Positions 24,196 through 49,768 of a DNA stretch of 64,000 nucleotides are shown here, piece after piece; position 1 is the stretch's first letter; every line of letters starts with the position of its first letter. The stretch is taken from the NCBI GenBank assembly GCA_018292915.2, contig JACVVK020000001.1, forward strand, positions 2,878,501-2,942,500. Direction: 5' to 3'. The notes under the pieces were generated by a model. It did no database searches, had not been told where the DNA came from, and saw nothing but the letters and a program-made list of their open reading frames with translations. The stretch comes from Batillaria attramentaria. Its lineage: Eukaryota > Mollusca > Gastropoda > Batillariidae. Position numbers and translations under genes: made by a program.

Positions 24196-26954
24196 CCATT
24201 TAGCTACAGGATTTGTATGCTCGCCTATACGTTGCGCGTGTCTAAAAATATACGAACCCAGTCAGCGGCTTCGATTCAAAAGTCTTTTGGCAATAATTTA
24301 TTACTGAGACGCTCTGGTCTCAGTGCCTCCAGCCACTCAACACGGGGGTTAAACAAAATGGCCGCGGTCAAACGAGGTGCCACTCTCGCCTCAAAGGTTC
24401 GACAACAATTCATTCTAAAATAACTTTATATTTCTGTGTGCTGTTGTGATGTGTTCGCAAAGATACGTGTCCACTCGATAAACGGTCCCTGTGTACCGAA
24501 ACGATTACCGAAATCATCTGGTCAAACGAAGTGCCACCAGATTTGAAATTAGTCAAACGAACAGGTGAGAGCGCCACAGTCTGGCCAAACGACGCCAAAA
24601 CTTTTGAACCAAGAGCAGCACTGTTTGACCTCGGCCAGTTTGTTTAACCCTCGTGCTCAGTGAGCGTCGAAGGACCGAACGTAAGAGGCCACGGCAGACA
24701 GTGGCCGCAGAACTTACTGAGTCTCGCAGTTCGAAACACTTCCTTTACACAGTGAGAGCTCATGCTAAACGGAAGTGCCCGAAGCTTCAAATTTACATTG
24801 CATAATGTTTTTTCCTCATTTACGACCACCGTCTTACACTTTTCACGTCCGCTGCCTACGAAGTGGTGCATGTAGCTGTGTGGTTGTTTGCGGCTAGGGA
24901 GGTCGCAAAGCCCTTATCAGTGAGTGAGCCAAGGAGGGGGGGTTTTCTCCAGTGTACGTTTAAGGCATGCATTTTGAATCTTATCTGCGTGTCGAGGGCT
25001 CGCGTGAGTGTCCGCCTCACAACTCATTCATTCGCACGGAAGGAGGACAACCTTAAAAAATAAATTTCCTGGGAAGCTGATCAGCTAAAAAAAAAAAGAA
25101 AATTAAAATGGCTGAATGTCTTGTGTGTAAAGTGTTACTAACTTGCTTAGTGTACGTATTCATTTCGGTGTTGCATATTCCGCTGACAGAGTGTCTGCGT
25201 TATTACTGCTATTGTCGGCATCATGATCCTGATACACGTTTCAAGAATTTCAGCGGCGTTTTTCAAGAGAGTTTGCGTAACGATTCAAGGAGCATTAACG
25301 AAGTGCTGAAAATCTGTGAAACCTCGCACTTCCGTCGGGTGAGCATTGATCTTTCCAGAAACAAGCTGGTGATTCTGCCCAACATAACTTGTGTTTGCGG
25401 GTCTGATCGGATCTACCTCCTGGACCTGTCTCACAACAAAATACGCGCGTTAAGGACAGGGGTATTTAACCCTGGAACTAGCGTGTTGAACTTGGATTTG
25501 TCCTACAACAGGGTGGTATCTATTGAAACAAAAGCATTTCCGTCGGAACTTGTAAATTTGAACCTGTCATACAATGAATTGCAAGTTCTTAAAGCCGGCA
25601 TCTTTGATCACCTAACTTGTATGAAAAGAATAGATGTCTCACACAATCATATTTACAAAATTGACACCGGAGCTTTTCACGGCAAAATGTGGTGCGTCGA
25701 ATATGCCGACTTCTCTTTAACCAGCTCAAAGTATTTGAACCGTGGCCGTATCTCTTTGCGGACAGAGTGTTTGTCAATTTGAGCTACAACTCTATCTCGC
25801 GTTTTACAAACGAAATGAACATGACATTTGACCGTGAGCTGTTAGTTCCTTCAGAAATTAACTTAATGTACAACAACCTCACGCGTTTTAACCCGGCCTC
25901 GCTGAGCATATACCACCAGGGAAGACCGCCTACCGCAACTGAAATCCGAAACTACTGGTTCAAGTTGTCAGGAAACCCCTGGATCTGCGACTGCCAGCTC
26001 TTCCCTTTGGTTCAAGTCATGCGGGAAAGTTTCTTCGGGTCGAATGTTGCCCGGGACTTGGTGTGTGAGACTCCGTGGCAGCTGCATAACCGTACACTGC
26101 GTGATCTGTACGAAAGGCCTGACCTGCTTGTGTGCGAGGTGGACGATGCGAGTTGCCCCGCGGGCTGCACGTGCCAGGACCGACCATACAGCAGATACAT
26201 CCTGGTGGACTGCGACCCCTCGCGACGTGTGTATACCCAACTTCCGGCACGACTCCCGCCCGACAAGCTGCTCTACCTCAACCTCTCGCGTCACCAGCTG
26301 CACGAGCTTCACCAGACGCCCAGCTACGTGTCCAGACTGTACGGCCTGGACGTCAGCCGGAACACGCTGACACACCTGTCTTCCAGCTTCCTCCAAGTCG
26401 CTACCAGCCTCGTCCACCTCAACATCAGCCAGAACCGACTCACCACTCTGCCGGCAGATATTCGCGGTCTGTCGCTGGAACATATCAAGATTACCGGAAA
26501 CCCTTTTTTGTGCTCTTGTGACTTCCTCTGGCTTGGCGAATGGATCAATGCCACTGCTGGTAAACTTGTACCCATCTCCTACAACCAAACGACAAACAAG
26601 CCAAGCAGTAAGCACGTGGACGACTCAGCCAATGAGACGGTTTCGGGGATGTCCGTGTCTGCGGAAGACCCTCAGATTGTTTTCAGACCGGCCTTACCTC
26701 CATCCCGACTGTCCCGCATTGTGTGCACCATGGAGAGCGGAGAGCTTCTTCCAGTGGTCGACATGTCGGCGAGTCGACTGGACTGTGGTCATCGTCTGAA
26801 GTTCGGCCTGTTGATCGGAGGAAGCTGTGCACTGTTTGTGGTTGTCTGTGGGGTCATCGTGTGCTGGCGATGGAGGTATGAGCTCAAGGTCGTCATGTTC
26901 TGGAAGTGTCCGCGTCTCACGACCTGCGTTCGAGGTAATAGTAGAGTTTGCACT

Positions 26955-27005: not shown

Positions 27006-27936
27006 CCCAATAACAGTTTTCTTAGATAAGTACGATTGTAGACCTGTACGTGACAATCACAGTAAATTGATAAACATCTTACCCACCAACACATCCACCC
27101 GCCCCCACCCCCTATCCCCCCCCCCCTCAAAAACAACAACAAAACAAAACAAACCCCTGAGTTAGGGTTTGGTGCCAAAGTATAACGGGGGACTGAAATT
27201 CATTGCTGTCAAAGTGTCATTCGTTCATTCAGGGCTGTCATCATTATGTGATACTGACTTTTCCGGGTTGCTCATCGTGGATTTCTCTCCGGGTTCTGTG
27301 GCTTTCTTTACCCCCAGGGAAATTCTGCATTGCTCCGGGACAGCTTTGTCTCTAGCGGAAGCAATCCGAATTTCAGTTAAAAAAAATCGTGAAGTGGATT
27401 TTCTGTCTGTGTTTTTAATCGGCGTTCTTACCATTATTTAAACAATGCTCTCCCCTTCTCATACCAGGATGTTGTAAACGGACACCCTCTCAGAACAAGG
27501 CTCCAACTGGTGATGAAGAGAAAGGAGCCGACCATGAGTTCGATGCAGGAGCTGACCGTTATGACGTGTACGTGTCTATGGACGAGGATGACGTGGCGAC
27601 TCAAGACTGGGCGATCGAGGTTCTCCTCCCTCTACTCCAGGGGCGACAACTGCGAGTATACCTTCCCCTGAGACACGAGTTACCTGGGAAAGTCAGGGCG
27701 GAGGTGAATACTGTTGTTAGAGTTTATAACCACCCCATCCCACTACAACCACCACCACCATAACCCTGTGAAAAATGTAAATAATTGAAAAAAAGAACAA
27801 GGAAATAGATACTAAGAAAATATGTATACGTTTTAAGACTGTCAGTCTTAACTGACTATGCCGGTATCACAGTTACACAGATTGAGTTACCCAGTTACTA
27901 AACCTGTTATTTATATACTCTCTCTCTCTCTCTCTG

Positions 27937-28110: not shown

Positions 28111-30206
28111 TCTCTCTCTCTCTCCCTTGCTCTGTACGTGTGTGTGTGTGTGTGGGGGGGGGGGATGCTGGTGTAACAGGATGTTGGTGAGAGAGATGCG
28201 CAAGTGTGACATCGTTTATCAATGCAATTGACTGATGTTTTTTTTCAACAAACGTGACGTAGCAACCATGCCGTTTCCTCCTTGGCTTTACTCTGTCGAC
28301 TGCGTTTGTTTGTGCTCTACAAATACCTCATACAACCACACACAGATTGCATTTGCGCTGAAAGCAAAAATCACGTCGCTTCAGCACTTGACAGGTGCAG
28401 AGACTGTAGTCTCTCTGACAGGAGTCAAGAGGTCTAAATGCTGACAACGTGCATGATCCCTCGGTGAGGGGACACAACTGTGAATCTTTGCGAATCGCTG
28501 GGTGCACTATTGCCTCCCTTACATACACTCGGCCCCCCCCCCCCCTCCACCCCCAAACAGACCAGGAAGCTGTAAAATATCAAGTATTGGGGCGAGCACA
28601 TCCTTGAGTGGCGGTAAACTCATAACGATCTACAAAGGTCCATAAACGTCACAAGTGTTGTTGCTGGTTTACTTGGTGAACGGTACAATTCATGTGACTG
28701 CAGCTTTACTAGTGCCTCAGGTTTTCAGCATCTGGTTGTGGGCACAAACTACGCAATCACTACGTCAGCTGCAGTGTCATTTTGTATTTCTCAGTCGTCA
28801 ACGTACTGAGGCAGATATGTCAGAGAACTTAGTATATGTCATGGCTACTTAATAAAACTAAGGATATGAAAACAAGGACAACGACGACGACGATGATGGT
28901 GATGATGACGACGAGAATGACGATGATGGTGATGATGACGAGGAGAATGACGATGATGATGATGATGATGATGTATTCACGTTTCTTTTATATTCAGGCT
29001 CGAGTGGAGTGCATCATGAGCAGCCGCAACACTCTGGTGGTACTGAGTGAAGGCTACTCCCAGAACAAGTGGTGCCGCATGGAGTTCGACCACGCCTGTC
29101 GTCATCTGCAGGGCGACAACTCCGGCAACCTCGTCCTGCTCGTCACAGCCGACCTTGAAAACGTCGTCAACGACCCCGCCCCTGACCGTGTGGGCCGAAG
29201 ATGTCGCCGGACGAATTCCAAAAGATGCCATGGCGATCTTCAGATGAGAAAGCAAAGACGCTGCAATCGTACTTGTGACAGGAAAGTCTGCAGGAAGGTT
29301 CATCACGATATAGAGGTTTGCACGGAATGCGGACCGGCTCGTTACGAAGGCCGCCGTGACTTAAAGAATTGCACAAAATGCAATGAAACTCACCATATGG
29401 GCCGACTACAAATTGGTGTGATGCGAAAGAAGGCTGTGGGTGAAGACTTTGACCGCACAGACTGTGAGGAAAACGAAATCTTTCATTGCAGGAACTGTTG
29501 TTTGAATTGTACATGTGCCTCTAGGCGCGACAAACGGGATTCAGATCGTGAAAACGAGAAACACAGAGGTAGAAGAAAGCAATGCCCTTCTCTACAGCAA
29601 AATAATCAACGCTTTGTGACAGAAAATGCAAAAGCCGACACCATTGTGATTAAACCTCAAGGCTCTGCCACTGCTAAAACAGTTTTAGGTTGCTCCAACA
29701 TAAAGCAAGCGACGGTCATGAACGTTTGCATAGAGATGCCCACCGCACATAGTCTGCAGCATGGCGCATATGCGAAACAATGTGAAAGGCAATGCCAATG
29801 CTTTTGTGATAGAAACAAGCGCATTTTCATCACACAAAGGCCCGGCTTCATGCACAAAGCACGCACGGAGGCAGTCACTTACCTGAGCCGCTACCGTGAG
29901 TCCAACGGGCAGACTGAGACAGTGGAACCGCTGAATACTTACCTAGCGGAGGGACGTTACCTGAGTGTCAAGGACCGCTTCCTGAAACAGAAACTTCTCT
30001 ATGAACTTGTGCACTAACTAGTGCAGGCAGCCAAAGTGATCGGTGTAGACTAAAGCGTAGTACTTGTCTCTAAATGTAAACAAACAAAACTTTTTAGTTA
30101 GTTATTTAACGCCACGCAAGCAGCAAAGACTATTTCGCAGCAAATCAAGGTCCTTCTTCGCCAGACTAAAATAAAAACACGCATCTTCTGTTAATAAAGT
30201 ATTGAA

Positions 30207-31611: not shown

Positions 31612-33467
31612 ATGGCCGAGTTTCCTACGTTGGAAGTGCTGATAACGTACTTTGTGTACGTATTTATTTTGGTGTTGCGTGTTTCGTTGACAGAGTGTTT
31701 ACGTAGTCTCGACTATTGCCGGCATTATTACCCTGACGAAGCACATTTCAAAAACTTAAGTGGCCTTTACCCAGAAGGTTTGCAGAACGATTCGAAGAGC
31801 ATGAACGAAGTGCTGGAAATCTGTGACACCTCGCACTTCGGTCAGGTGAGCGTTGATCTATCCAGAAACAAGCTGGTGATTCTGCCCACGATAACTTCTG
31901 TTTGCGGGTCTTATCGGATCTACCTCCTGGACCTGTCTCACAACAAAATACGCGCGTTAAGGACAGGGGTATTTAACCCTGGAACTAGCGTGTTGAACTT
32001 GGATTTGTCCTACAACAGGGTGGTATCTATTGAAACAAAGGCCTTTCCGTCGGAACTTGTGAATTTAGACCTGTCTCATAATGAACTTCAAATTCTCGAA
32101 GCCGGCATCTTTGATCACATGACTCGTTTGAAAAGAATAGATGTCTCACACAATCGTATTTACAAAATTGACACCGGAGTTTTTCACAGCAAGATGTTGT
32201 GCGTCGAATATGCCGACTTCTCTTTTAACCAGCTCAAAGTATTTGAACTGTGGCCGTATCTCTTTGCGGACAGAGTGTTTGTCAATTTGAGCTACAACTG
32301 TATCTCGCGTTTTACAAACGAAATGAACATGACATTTGACCGTGAGCTGTTAGTTCCTTCAGAAATTAACTTAATGTACAACAACCTCACGCGTTTTAAC
32401 CCGGCGACGTTGAGCATATACCACCAGGGAAGACCGCCTTACGCGTTCGAAATCCAGTATTACTGGTTCAAGTTGTCGGGAAACCCCTGGATCTGCGACT
32501 GCCAGCTTTTCCCTTTGGTTCAAGTGATTCGGGAAAGTTTTCTCAGGTCAAATCTTGCTCAGGAGATCGACATTGTGTGTGAGACTCCGTGGCAGCTGCA
32601 TAACCGTACACTGCGTGATCTGTACGAAAGGCCTGACCTGCTTGTGTGCGAGGTGGACGATGCGAGTTGCCCCGCGGGCTGCACGTGCCAGGACCGACCG
32701 TATAGCGGCTACATCCTGGTGGACTGCGACCCCTCGCAACGTGTGTACACCCAGCTTCCGGCACGACTCCCGCCCGACAAGCTGCTCTACCTCAACCTCT
32801 CGCGTCACCAGCTGCACGAGCTTCACCAGGCGCCCAGCTACGTGTCCAGACTGTACGGCCTGGACGTCAGCCGGAACACGCTGACACACCTGTCTTCCAG
32901 CTTCCTCCAAGTCGCTACCAGCCTCGTCCACCTCAACATCAGCCAGAACCGACTCACCACTCTGCCGGCAGATATTCGAGGTCTGTCGCTGGAACATATC
33001 AAGATTACCGGAAACCCTTTTCTGTGCTCTTGTGACTTCCTCTGGCTTGGCGAATGGATCAATGCCACTGCTGGTAAACTTGTACCCATCTCCTACAACC
33101 AAACGACAAACATGCCAAGCAGTAAGCACGTGGACGACTCAACCAATGAGACGGTTTCGGGGATGTCGGTGTCTGCAGAAGACCCTCAGATTGTTTTCAG
33201 ACCGGCCTTACCTCCATCCAGACTGTCCCGCATTGTGTGCACCATGGAGAGCGGAGAGCTTCTTCCAGTGGTCGACATGTCGGCGAGTCGACTGGACTGT
33301 GGTCATCGTCTGAAGTTCGGCCTGTTGATCGGAGGAAGCTGTGCACTGTTTGTGGTTGTCTGTGGGGTCATCGTGTGCTGGCGATGGAGGTATGAGCTCA
33401 AGGTCGTCATGTTCTGGAAGTGTCCGCGTCTCACGAACTGCGTTCGAGGTAATAGTAAAGTTTGCAT

Positions 33468-33519
<52 letters not shown>

Positions 33520-34595
33520 CCCAATAACAGTTTTCTTAGATAAGTACGATTGTAGTTACATGACAATCACAGTAAATTGATAAACATCTTACCCACCAAC
33601 ACATCCAACCGCCCCCACCCCCTACCCCCCCCCCCCCCCCTCAAAAACAACAACAACAAAATAAAACAAAACAAACCTGAGTTAGGGTTTGGTGCCAAAG
33701 TAAAACGGGGGACTGAAAATTCATTGCTGTCAAAGTGTCATTCGTTCATTCAGGGCTGTCATCATTATGTGATACTGACTTTTCCGGGTTGCTCATCGTG
33801 GATTTCTCTCCAGGTTCTGTGGCTTTCTTTACCCCCAGGGAAATTCTGCATTGCTCCGAGCAGCGTTTTCACTAGTGCAAGCAATCCGAATTTCAGTTTA
33901 AAAGAAAAACAAAAAACCTTGAAGTGGATTTTCTGTGTGTGTTTTTAATCGGCGTTCTTACCATTACTTTAATAATGTTTTCCCCTTCTCATACGAGGAT
34001 GTTGTAAACGAACACCCTCTCACAACAAGGCTCCAACTGGCGATGAAGACAAAGGAGCCGACCATGAGTTCGATGGAGGAGCTGACCGTTTTGACGTGTA
34101 CGTGTCTCTGGACGAGGATGACGTGGCGACTCAAGACTGGGCGATCGAGGTTCTCCTCCCTCTACTCCAAGGGCGACAAATGCGAGTCTACCTTCCCCTG
34201 AGACACGAGTTACCTGGGAAAGTCAGGGCGGAGGTGATTACTGTTGTTAGATTACAACCACCACCACCATAACCATGTGAAAAAATGTAAATAATTGAAA
34301 CAAAATGACCAAGGAAATAAATATGTGTACGTTTTAAGACTGTCAGTATTAACCGACTATGGTATCATAGTCACAGTTACACAAACTGAGTTACCCAGTT
34401 ACTAAACCTGTTATACTCTCTCTCTCTCTCTCTCTCTACGTGTGTGTGTGTGGGGGGGGGGGATGCTGGTGTCACGGTAACAGGATGTTGGTGAGAGAGA
34501 TGCGCAAGCGTGACATCATTTATCAATGCAGCTGACTGTGAATCTTTGCTAATCGCTGGGTGCACTATTGCCTCCCTTACATACACTCGCGGTTC

Positions 34596-34628
<33 letters not shown>

Positions 34629-36108
34629 ACCCCCGTTAAAGAGACCAGGAAGTTGTGAATATCAAGTGTTGGGGCGGGCACATCCTTGAGTGGCCGTAAC
34701 CAGTTGGTGGTTTCGTCGGTTAACAGTCCACTTCATTTGACAGCGGCTTTTACTATTGCCTGAAGTTTTCAGCATGGCAGTGGTTGTGTGCACGAACTAC
34801 GCAATCACTACGTCAGCTGCAGTGTCATTTTGTATTTCTCAGTCGTCAACGTATTGAAGCAGATATGTCAGAGAACTTAGTATCTGTCATGGCTACTTAA
34901 TAAAACTAAGGATATGAAGACAAGGACAACGATGATGATGATGATGATGATTTTATGCCTTCTAGGCCCGGGTGGAATGCATCAAGAGCATTGCGTTCAC
35001 AATGATGATGATGAAGACGACGACGACGACGATGATGAAGACGACGATGACGATGATGACGATGATGATGATGTATTTACGTTTCTGTTATATTCAGGCT
35101 CGAGTGGAGTGCATCATGAGCAGCCGCAACACTCTGGTGGTACTGAGTGAAGGCTACTCCCGGAACAAGTGGTGCCGCATGGAGTTCGACCACGCCTGTC
35201 GTCATCTGCAGGGCGACAACTCCGGCAACCTCGTCCTGCTCGTCACAGCCGACCTTGAAAACGTCGTCAACGACCCCGACCCTGACCGTGTGGGCCAAAG
35301 ATATCGCCGGACGAATTCCAAAAGATGCCATGGCGATCTTCAGATGAGAAAGCAAAGACGCTGCAATCGTACTTGTGACAGGAAAGTCTGCAGGAAGGTT
35401 CATCACGATATAGAGGTTTGTACGGCTCATCACAAAGGCCGCCGTGACTCAAAGAACTACACAAAATGCGATGAAACTCACCATATGGGCCGACTACAAA
35501 TTGGTGTGGCGCGAAAGAAGGCTGTGGGTGAAGACTTTGACCGCACAGACTGTGAGGAAAACGAAATCTTTCATTGCAGGAACTGTTGTTTGAATTGTAC
35601 ATGCACCTCTAGGCGCGACAAACAGGATTCAAATCGTGAAAACGAGAAACACAGAGGTAGAAGAAAGCAATGCCCTTCTCTACAGAAAAATAATCAACGC
35701 TTTGTGACAGAAAATGCAAAAGCCGACACCATTGTGATTAAACCTCAAGGCTCTGCCACTGCTAAAACAGTTTTAGGTTGCTCCAGCTTAAAGAAAGCCA
35801 CGTTCATGGACGTTTGCATAGAGATGCATACCGCACATGTTAGCCTGCAGCATGGCGCACATGCGAATCAATGTGAAAGGCAATGCCAATGCTTTTGTGA
35901 TAGAAACAAGCGTACTTCCAGCACACAAAGGCCCGGCATTATGCACAAAGCACGCACGGAGGCAGTCACTTACCTGAGCCGTTACCGTGAGTCCAACGGG
36001 CAGACTGAGACAGTGGAACCGCTGAATACTTACCTGGCGGAGGGACGTTACCTGAGTGTCAAGGACCGCTTCCTGAAACAGAAACTTCTCTATGAACTTG
36101 TGCACTAA
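31612..36108 (+). CDS. Toll-like receptor B (LRR-TM-TIR) with Cys-rich TIR insertion
   Basis: Intact 1027-aa receptor. Exons: 31612-33448, 33998-34233, 35098-36108; phases 1 and 0. The ATG at 31612 aligns with that of gene A. Approximate layout: hydrophobic leader 8-28, LRRs 75-285, LRR-CT at 291 (NPWICDC), LRR-NT at 352 (CPAGCTC), LRRs to 465, second LRR-CT at 467 (NPFLCSCDF), membrane span 567-590, TIR from 644 (FDVYVSLDEDD). The BB loop keeps LPG (HELPGK, about 684). Helix C has NKWCRMEFDHACR and strand D NLVLLVTADL (about 735). Residues about 752-976 form a Cys/Arg/Lys-rich insertion, after which the TIR resumes (VEPLNTYLAEGRYLSVKDRF). Two LRR-CT clusters mark the Toll/mccTLR class. It probably signals at the membrane through TIR adaptors, unless the insertion changes this. 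The exon 2 acceptor is GAG rather than the CAG of gene A. Confidence 0.93.
33472..33516. repeat. (CT)n microsatellite, TLR B intron 1
   Basis: Orthologous in position to the run in gene A. Confidence 0.95.
34966..35001 (+). pseudogene. Relic of a TIR exon start inside TLR B intron 2
   Basis: After TTCTAG the sequence reads A-R-V-E-C-I-K-S-I-A-F-T in frame, matching the first residues of the real exon 3 (ARVECIMSSRNT) that begins 132 bp downstream. It breaks off in GAT/GAC repeats, so only the acceptor and about 12 codons remain. Confidence 0.65.
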
Positions 36109-46073: not shown

Positions 46074-48572
46074 ATGGCACAGGTCTGGAAGGTTCAGGAT
46101 TTATTCCATATCATCCTACTGTTATCGGGCTGTCGGAGCGCTTTGTCATGCTACTCGTGGCCGACTGAGTTACTGGACTACAGTGGTGACATAAGGAGTG
46201 GCAAGTTCCAGACACTGGATCACATGAAGGACAACATAACAACACATACCTGTGCCCTCCACGCATCGGCCGGTGTCAGGCTGGATCTTTCACAGAACGA
46301 TATCGACACAATCCCGTCGTCATTTTTCAACAGCATCCCAAGCACATGCCTGGCGAAGATAAAACATCTGGATCTTTCGCACAACATGCTGCAGGCTCTC
46401 CCGGTAGGTGTTTTTGAGGAGTTGCGCTGCTTGACAACCCTGAATGTCTCGTTCAATAACATCTCTCTTCTCAATGTTGGAATTCTTCCGAGCAGTGTAG
46501 AGGTTCTCGACATCTCGCACAACGGACTGGAACGTATAGATCGAAGCACATTCGCTGGTTTGAATTCTCTCAGCCAAGTGAATGCTTCACACAATCTGCT
46601 GTCTGCTGTGGAAACCAGGGTGTTTAACGAGAGCAACAGGTATGTTTCGTCCGTGGACTTCTCTTTTAATCGGATCTCAGCGTTTGAACCTTGGCCTTAC
46701 TTCTTCGATCCTACCGTGGTTGTGAATCTGAGTTACAACAAAATCTCGCGATTCACGAACTCGGCAAATTTGACAATGACTAGTCGTGAAATGCTACCGG
46801 CAAAAGTGGACTTGCAGCACAACAATCTAAGCAGATTCCGTTTGGACGAAATCAGCGCCTATTTCAACGGAAGAAGGCCGAACGCCTTGGAGCTGGGGAA
46901 CCTGGCGTTTCAACTCACTAACAACCCTTGGATTTGTGACTGTCAGTTCTTCTGGCTGGTCAACATGCTGAGGACTAGCTTGGTGAAGGAGTACGAGGGT
47001 GTTCACAACTTATTATCTTGCGACACACCTCGACATCTCCACGGCAAGATGCTGGGCTACCTCATCGAGAGACCTGACCTCCTGGTGTGCAACGTCAGCC
47101 AGGACTGTCCCGCGGGCTGCACGTGCCAGGACCGGCCGTCCAGCGGCTACATCCTGGTGGACTGCGACCCCTCGCGACGTGTGTACACCCAACTGCCGGC
47201 ACGACTCCCGCCAGACAAGCTGCTCTACCTCAACCTCTCGCGTCACCAGCTGCACGAGCTTCACCAGGCGCCCAACTACGTATCCAGATTGTACGGCCTG
47301 GACGTCAGCCGGAACACGCTGACCGACTTGTCGTCCTCGTTCCTTGAAGCGGCCACCAGCCTGGTCCAGCTGAACGTAAGCGACAACAAACTGACCACGT
47401 TTCCTGGTAACATACGTCGGCTGTCTCTGGAGAACATTCAGCTTCGTGGAAACCCGCTGGTGTGCTCGTGTGGCTTCCTCTGGTTCGGGGAATGGTTCAG
47501 CGCGACGCATTCCGCAGCTAACGTGTCTTCCCCAGCTGAAACCTCTTCTACAACACCGCCACAGAGAGATGAGCTAAACTCGGGAAAGGACCTTGACCTT
47601 GGATCGTCTCAGAAAATCGACCCACTTCTCTGCAAGACAGAGGACGGGGAGGAACTCCTGGTCGTGGACATGTCAGTATCGAGGTTAGGCTGCAGGCGTC
47701 TGACGATCGGGCTGCTGGTAGGGGGCGGCTGTGTCTTGCTCGTCACTGTCTTCGTGATGGTCGTTTCGTGGAGATGGCGGTATCAGGTGACGGTCATCGT
47801 CCACTACTGGTTTTGCGGCCGGGCTGGACGGTGTGTTGGTAAGTATGCTCAGTTCCAAGAGGTCTTCCTCGGTCTACTTGCGTGTGTGCGTGTTGTTTTG
47901 TTTTGTTTTATTTTTTGTTTTTTATTTATTTATTAATAGTTTTTGTTTGTTTGTTTTGTTTTGTTGTTTTGTTGGTTTTTTGTTTTTTTGTTTTTTTTGT
48001 TGTTGTTGTTGTTTGTTTTTTTGTTTTTGTTTTTTTTTGGGGGGGGTGCAAATGTGTGGAGATGAAGTTGATACTGGTAATGGTAATGATTTATTCTTTG
48101 AACGTTTCAAGAAAATGCAGAAATGCATACGTGTGCATATACTACACGTACACTAATCTGCAGACCAACCTTCATTTGCATCTCCACTGCATAAGTTTAC
48201 CAGCTCGGCCAACGCACAGTCACCATCGCAAGTTAAATACTACACCACAGCGTAGCCCATACACAATTTCTTTTTCCACCTTCCACTGTTTCAGGTCCTC
48301 ACAAGGATCAAGACCCAAACGCAGCCAATGCTGACGGACGTATGGTTGGAATCGCCCATCAGAACGCCGCGGTCAACGGAGCAGCGGCCAACGGCTATAA
48401 CATGTACTCTGCTCACCGTTACGACGTGTATGTGTCTATGGACGAAGAGGACGAACAAGTGTTTGATATTGTCAAGAAGGTCCTGCTCCCTCTTTTGGAG
48501 GGACGGCAAAAACTTCGCGTCTACCTTCCACTCAGACAGGAGCTGCCCGGGGCTTGCAAGGCAGAGGTAAGG

Positions 48573-48624
<52 letters not shown>

Positions 48625-49768
48625 GTGGGTGTGTGGGAGTGAGTGGGAAGGGTGGGGGCTAACCTTCGCCGTACGTCTAAAAACTTGCGCGCCATACATC
48701 GTGGGTGCACACACCTATGCCTTTAGAGAAGGTAAAAACGTATGTTACAACGTTTTCGGTGTTTATTTACTCGTTTATCTACTAATATTAAAAAATCACA
48801 AGTTATGGTGAGCACTTCACTAGTACCCTTTTGCAGAAAACCATGAATTTCGTGGATCTAAGCGTGAAATTTGACTCAGCTACGGGCGTTTGATTGAAAG
48901 TGTGGGTGCAATTGTACCCACGACGTACGGCGAAGGTAAGGCCCATTTTCTGACATCACTATGCTCACAAATCATTTTGAGCTGTTTTGGTTGTGTCTAA
49001 CATCGTACCTTTTAGCCACAAGCACACTTACATCCTTACACAGGCTGGCACTGATCCAACAGAAGCCGAAACGAGAAACACAGCGTCTGCCACACGACTG
49101 ACTAGGACAGTTTCGGGCTGTTGCAGCTCTTATTCGCACGGCTAGCAGACGCCAGCGTATTGCATTTAGAGCTCTACTTATAGGATGGACTATTTCAAGA
49201 GCACTGTTCCAAACACAAAAGATGCCCTTTTAGAAGCACAGTAATCTTAAAATTGGCGCCTTTAACTCATCCGTCACGGCGGGAGACTTCGATCAAAGAT
49301 TGAATTTACAGCAGAGTTAATGGAGCGTTTACCAGTTCTGTTTTCTTGTCACAGTCTCGTGTGGACGCGCTCCTCAGCAGCCACAGCGCTTTGATTCTTA
49401 TCAGCCACAACTACGCGCAGAACGGCTGGTGTCGCTTCGAGTTCGATCATGCGTGTCGGCATCTGGAGCAAAACATGGCCGCCGGCAACCTGGTCCTCCT
49501 CGTCATCGCCGCCACCGGCGACAACAACGACGACGACGACCATCACCACCACCACCACCACGACAACGACGACAGGAATCCCGTGGCCGAGCTCAGCAAG
49601 TTCCGAGAATGTGACGGACATGTGGAAACCCTTGAGCCACTGAGGACGTTCCTGGTGGACCGCCGCTACCTAGGGCTAAGGGACCGCTTCATGAAGCAGA
49701 AACTTGTGTACGAACTCTCCCGGAAACGCAAGAAAGAGGAAGGAAAAGACGATACCGCAGAAGTTTGA
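46074..49768 (+). CDS. Toll-like receptor C (LRR-TM-TIR)
   Basis: Intact 816-aa receptor. Exons: 46074-47838, 48295-48566, 49355-49768, same phases as A and B. I chose ATG 46074 (AGAATGG context, followed by a hydrophobic leader DLFHIILLLSG); upstream in-frame codons lack an ATG. Layout: LRRs, LRR-CT near 284 (NPWICDCQF), LRR-NT near 344 (CPAGCTC), LRRs, second LRR-CT (NPLVCSCGF), membrane span about 543-565, TIR from about 630 (YDVYVSMDEED). BB loop QELPGA; helix C NGWCRFEFDHACR; strand D NLVLLVIAA. Residues 738-752 are a DDDD-HHHHHHH-DNDD tract at the position of the Cys-rich insertion in A/B. Box 3 is weak (RDRFMKQKLVYEL). It is clearly more diverged from A/B than these are from each other, except in one tract (see findings). 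Confidence 0.93.
48578..48622. repeat. (TG)n microsatellite, TLR C intron 2
   Basis: TG run 11 bp after the donor at 48567. Confidence 0.95.

Follow-up and report, generated by a model that had tools for sequence, protein, structure and literature searches.

Two of the three tandem Toll-like receptor genes (A, B and C, all on the + strand) situated within the window (i.e., the whole stretch of DNA analysed, 64,000 nt) have their TIR domain interrupted by about 230 residues in frame, which raises the question of what this block is, whether it belongs to the protein, and from where it derives. The reading preferred here, with a probability of roughly 0.45, is that the Toll-like receptor genes A and B, a tandem pair, carry in the DD loop a translated, lineage-restricted block of ~230 residues, likely a non-coding sequence, perhaps an intron, that was exonised.

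The three receptor genes and the position of the insert

The gene models and the limits of the insert are as follows:

Gene A, exon 1: 25108..26934, + strand; LRR ectodomain and probable TM; frame shifted by 1 nt against B near 25716
Gene A, exon 2: 27468..27703, + strand; first half of the TIR, placed from its splice signals and its homology with B and C
Gene A, exon 3: 28998..30017, + strand; second half of the TIR with the insert, stop codon included; clear acceptor
Gene A, insert: 29169..29867, + strand; outer limits given, 233 codons; a putative former intron would span 29190-29870
Gene B, exon 1: 31612..33448, + strand; open
Gene B, exon 2: 33998..34233, + strand; first half of the TIR
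Gene B, exon 3: 35098..36108, + strand; second half of the TIR with the insert, stop codon included; clear acceptor
Gene B, insert: 35269..35958, + strand; outer limits given, 230 codons; a putative former intron would span 35290-35961
Gene C, exon 1: 46074..47838, + strand; paralog without the insert
Gene C, exon 2: 48295..48566, + strand
Gene C, exon 3: 49355..49768, + strand; near-empty site; the DD loop bears a short Asp/His repeat at about 49520-49575

Gene B comprises three exons with 1027 codons and is open throughout. Gene A follows the same three-exon plan, but its exon 1 frame is broken near 25716 by a 1-nt deletion relative to B, a feature absent from the original prediction; since the deletion sits in a run of T, the frameshift may be either true or an assembly error. 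Concerning the identity of the genes, exon 1 of B matches LRR_8 (E 2.4e-23, in three stretches), a candidate TM helix (LLIGGSCALFVVVCGVIVCW) was spotted by eye in exon 1, and the TIR exceeds the Pfam cut-off for PF01582 (21.3 bits) in A (25.2 bits) as well as in B (22.7 bits), over profile positions 51-94 only. With the insert removed, the joined flanks match the TIR of TLR6 among the PDB chains (E 3.8e-9, query 20-119), and the half of the TIR with the BB loop is intact by motif in both genes. A tblastn search with B through 100 kb on each side of the window (200 kb, L016-L035) revealed no further family member at E <= 1e-3.

Some irregularities are found outside the insert. B and C exhibit ~49% protein identity over the ectodomain match; despite this, 32625-33061 of B and 47066-47499 of C, both in exon 1, are 81% identical over 437 nt at the DNA level, possibly as a result of gene conversion. 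Along exon 1 of A and B (25108-26934 vs 31612-33448), dS is 0.27 at the 5' end but drops to 0.04 by the 3' end, a pattern that homogenisation of the 3' part might explain. In gene B, 34962-34995 (ttctag followed by gcccgggtggaatgcatcaagagc) looks like a decayed second start of exon 3 upstream of the one used.

In exon 3 of A and B, the TIR runs up to strand D (NLVLLVTADLENVV), continues with 233 or 230 residues, respectively, and then passes into TEAVTYLSRYRES...LLYELVH, whereas gene C is uninterrupted at this place (NLVLLVIAATGDNNDDDDHHHHHHHDNDDRNPVAELSKFRECDG). The interval from strand D to the TYL/TFL motif comprises 263 residues in A, 260 in B and 46 in C. Since ordinary TIR genes of the same genome have about 19-20 residues there, the site in C, which had also escaped the original prediction, is near-empty rather than ordinary: its loop contains, at the place of the insert, a short Asp/His run from a GAC/CAC repeat. 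The DD loop seems prone to growth in the A/B/C family. No Pfam or PDB chain match covers the part of A and B that follows the insert, and its assignment as the end of the TIR rests on gene C and on a likeness, judged by eye, to a distant TIR paralog described below (L041).

The insert contains 22 Cys, 32 Arg and 18 Lys in A and 19 Cys in B. Its GC content is 0.476 (0.591 and 0.533 in the flanks), and its GC3 0.466 (0.789 and 0.640 in the flanks). The net charge amounts to +23 in A and +22 in B, and, as its mean hydropathy is 0.377 and 0.363 where the charge-hydropathy relation sets the disorder boundary at 0.449 and 0.448, the insert falls on the disordered side and is probably a long, basic, disordered loop; AlphaFold models, with a mean pLDDT of 38.4 and 31.8 (<40), are uninformative on its structure. 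The original prediction had described an insertion of about 220 codons after strand D in both genes, rich in Cys, Arg and Lys, more A/T-rich than its flanks and situated in the DD-loop region; all of this is real, with gene C supporting the position.

Reading frame and divergence of the insert

The insert measures 699 nt in A and 690 nt in B, both multiples of three without an in-frame stop. In frame 0, zero stops compare with 10.2 expected, and the probability of an open frame is 5e-5 (20,000 Markov-1 simulations). Among local 699-nt windows matched in GC and poor in simple repeats, 3 of 971 are open in the tested frame; by eye, two of these resemble real exons and one a minisatellite. The inserts of A and B differ by two indels (one of 12 nt, one of 3 nt; end-gap indels are left out of the counts), both of them in frame; of the 20 indels in introns 1 and 2, five are. 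Because the frame is open at odds of ~5e-5 and both indels are in frame, the insert is most likely translated. Openness partly reflects survival, however, because a non-open insert could not persist in a working exon, and the probability that no stop arises in the 35 changes between A and B is 0.31 under neutrality. The idea that the insert was originally coding in a different frame was rejected, as the other five frames hold 5 to 17 stops.

In comparison to stop-free random sequences, the insert shows a higher codon-position periodicity (p 0.005), an excess of Cys (22 vs 10.0 +/- 3.0, p 0.0005; 16 residue types were tested and p is uncorrected) and a depletion of Leu, Ser and Trp. These properties favour coding; all three are also unlike plain intron DNA and count against a plain intron origin. 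The codon-usage score of the insert is -0.113, compared with -0.08 to -0.12 in intron 1 and with 0.47, 0.23 and 0.10 in the coding neighbours.

The flanks within exon 3 are constrained, whereas the insert is not: nonsynonymous changes between A and B number 1 at 245 sites in the flanks versus 27 at 544 sites in the insert (p 0.0006), with synonymous changes at 2 of 75 versus 8 of 139 sites (p 0.50). In the insert, 8 of 35 substitutions are synonymous (10.0 +/- 2.7 expected without selection) and dN/dS is 0.86, consistent with neutrality; the corresponding ratio is 0.42 in exon 1 and 0.44 in exon 2. The synonymous share is lower than that of exon 1 (51/127), at p 0.07 only. Concerning overall divergence, the insert (35/687, 5.1%) equals intron 1 (29/528, 5.5%; p 0.80), but this intron-like rate depends on the yardstick, because intron 2 (96/776, 12.4%, in an alignment with many gaps) and the entire exon 1 (127/1826, 7.0%) both differ more. 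Between B and C, the segment following the insert has a dN of 0.33 and a dS of 2.4 (near saturation).

The original prediction had called the insertion conserved and regarded it as sequence kept as coding. The divergence contradicts conservation, and dN/dS, proposed there as a check with values near 1 counting against the idea, came out at 0.86. As regards coding, the open frame of both copies and the 12-nt and 3-nt in-frame indels were borne out, so that read-through is likely. Since its divergence is about that of the neighbouring intron, the insert is most probably a loop that was taken up recently and is under loose constraint, rather than a conserved metal module.

Origin of the insert and alternative explanations

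The genome (715 Mb, 863 contigs) was searched for further copies. The protein search with the insert gave two strong matches, i.e., A and B, and three weak ones (E 0.014 to 0.52); the DNA search, in which very common words are skipped, gave A and B only; and a 24-mer pattern with up to 3 mismatches gave two exact matches and one with 3 mismatches, the reversed control pattern giving two. The weak protein matches (L011-L013) were judged to be chance, as their best DNA likeness is 76% over 38 nt (E 0.82); the frames of L011 and L012 contain stops. A transposon origin was rejected because there are just two copies, and no terminal repeats stood out; the transposon fragment that the original prediction had named as a counter-explanation is thus not indicated, as far as the protein, DNA and pattern searches show. 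A known domain was likewise rejected: the Pfam search of the insert returned only CdhD (E 0.087, below its cut-off), and the PDB search a single match with E 0.88; neither search found a relative.

Beyond A, B and C, the nearest TIR gene and sole match at E <= 0.001 is the distant TIR paralog of the same genome mentioned above (L041, C22:2154489). At the place of the A/B insert it carries an apparent phase-0 intron (DPDLK/gtcaca...ttcag/IAMK), which ends before IAMKTRTYL and looks normal, containing CA repeats and stops in frame; in sequence, the insert shows no similarity to it. At the matching place, gene A reads DPAPDR/GTGGGC, the GT being in phase 0 at 29190, and has an AG, likewise in phase, whose last base is 29870; without 29190-29870, gene A would read DPAPDR/AVTYLSRYRE, close to C. 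An ancestral intron is not established by this, because no intron interrupts this place in gene C or in 12 of the 14 other TIR genes inspected. These 14 genes (the best-scoring eight, L001-L008, and a chosen six, L045-L050) are not a random sample of the TIR survey of the genome, which comprised at least 150 scored matches from 261 candidates. Of the remaining two, L050 has a stop near strand D, and L045 has a short loop and breaks off later. In the latter (C151:596540-597540), the TIR frame leaves after TTTYR into sequence that by eye resembles the region following the stop codon of C (49770 onward), perhaps a repeat shared by both.

According to the preferred reading, a non-coding block, perhaps an intron like the apparent one in L041, would have been situated at this place in the DD loop; its working splice signals would then have disappeared at a time when it had an open frame, turning it into exon. 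The insert would now constitute a long, basic and probably disordered DD loop, which may leave the BB-loop half intact and project from the DD-loop side. TLR10 is described in PMC4425437 as assembling its TIR via the BB loop, alpha-C and the DD loop; by analogy, a long block in the DD loop should alter TIR-TIR contacts, most simply weaken them, and the assembly might be weakened or redirected in such a way that signalling is damped or retuned. A more far-reaching version, in which a whole DD-loop intron was exonised in frame and gave rise to a receptor class whose translated, Cys/Arg-rich loop of 230 residues retunes TIR assembly, appears unlikely.

Alternatively, the block might still be an intron or exitron that, with its poor signals, is nevertheless spliced out of most mRNA, the mature TIR being near normal like that of C. 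The neutral-like divergence and the non-coding codon usage of the insert would fit such splicing, as would the apparent intron of L041 at the matching place and the phase-0 GT and AG of gene A, which would restore a sequence in line with C. Splice sites were scored with generic weight matrices. On this scale, phase-0 acceptor-like sites within the insert reach 3.3 (A, 29598) and 4.4 (B, 35686), inside the range of real ones (2.8 to 7.5), but the acceptor scores have a high background, because AGs within the exon at 29112 and 29149 score 3.3 and 3.0. No donor above 3 exists within 29101-29960 or 35201-36050, the donor at 29190/35290 scores -1.8 (real donors 2.8 to 3.7), and the outer in-phase acceptor falls below the listing limit of -6. 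Moreover, the open frame and the in-frame indels would have to be coincidences, and continued splicing is considered rather doubtful.

It is improbable that the genes are decaying and that the block is tolerated as A, and perhaps B, no longer signals. The 1-nt frameshift in exon 1 of A and the dN/dS of 0.86 in the insert point in this direction, but the former lies in a T run and is possibly an assembly error, B is open over its 1027 codons, the ratios of 0.42 and 0.44 in exons 1 and 2 are lower, and the flanks within exon 3 show the single nonsynonymous change in 245 sites. Least probable is the reading suggested by the original prediction, a Cys-rich module folded within the TIR that binds metal or senses redox state: the 22 Cys (10.0 +/- 3.0 expected) and clusters such as CRNCCLNCTC and CERQCQCFC, which are the same in A and B, would agree with it, but Cys is kept between A and B no better than other residues (19/22 columns, with His 10/14, versus 203/229 overall), two CxxC pairs, CTEC and CTKC, are disrupted in B, the insert evolves in a neutral-like manner, and there is no relative in Pfam, PDB or the genome.

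Comparison with known receptors

A receptor that keeps the BB-loop half but has a DD loop enlarged by 230 residues would indicate how much alteration that surface allows, and A, B and C provide a natural comparison, with and without the block, at one locus. An exonised-intron origin, if true, would be a large and datable case of non-coding sequence turned into protein within an immune signalling domain.

A and B resemble the molluscan Toll-like receptors of the multiple-cysteine-cluster type (P-type), which have a single TIR at the C terminus. They have in common with these an LRR ectodomain, an internal Cys-cluster junction, a probable TM helix, and a TIR with the BB loop R..LPGK and box-2 WC..E, whereas the splitting of the TIR by an intron after KVRAE and the ~230 residues added after strand D are differences.

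A TIR with such an insert was not found in the open-access literature searched, including excerpts of PMC12521104, PMC4425437, PMC4929906 and PMC9334734. Like the tandem-TIR Toll-2 of molluscs, A and B have gained sequence in their cytoplasmic part, which is termed domain insertion in the account of Toll-2 in PMC4929906; the addition there is a second TIR, whereas that of A and B has no recognisable domain and lies inside one TIR. Within the same genome, L041 has an apparent interruption at this place as well, but in the form of a normal-looking intron that contains CA repeats and in-frame stops and is not similar in sequence to the insert. An isoform of teleost TLR9B, reported for the grouper in PMC4425437, retains an intron of 107 nt, such that the protein ends after about 15 residues, and suppresses TLR9 signalling. 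In contrast to this isoform, the block of A and B is genomic, in frame and 699 or 690 nt long, and the TIR resumes after it; a whole intron exonised in this way, if true, would be the fixed, full-length counterpart of the intron-retention isoform of fish TLR9B.
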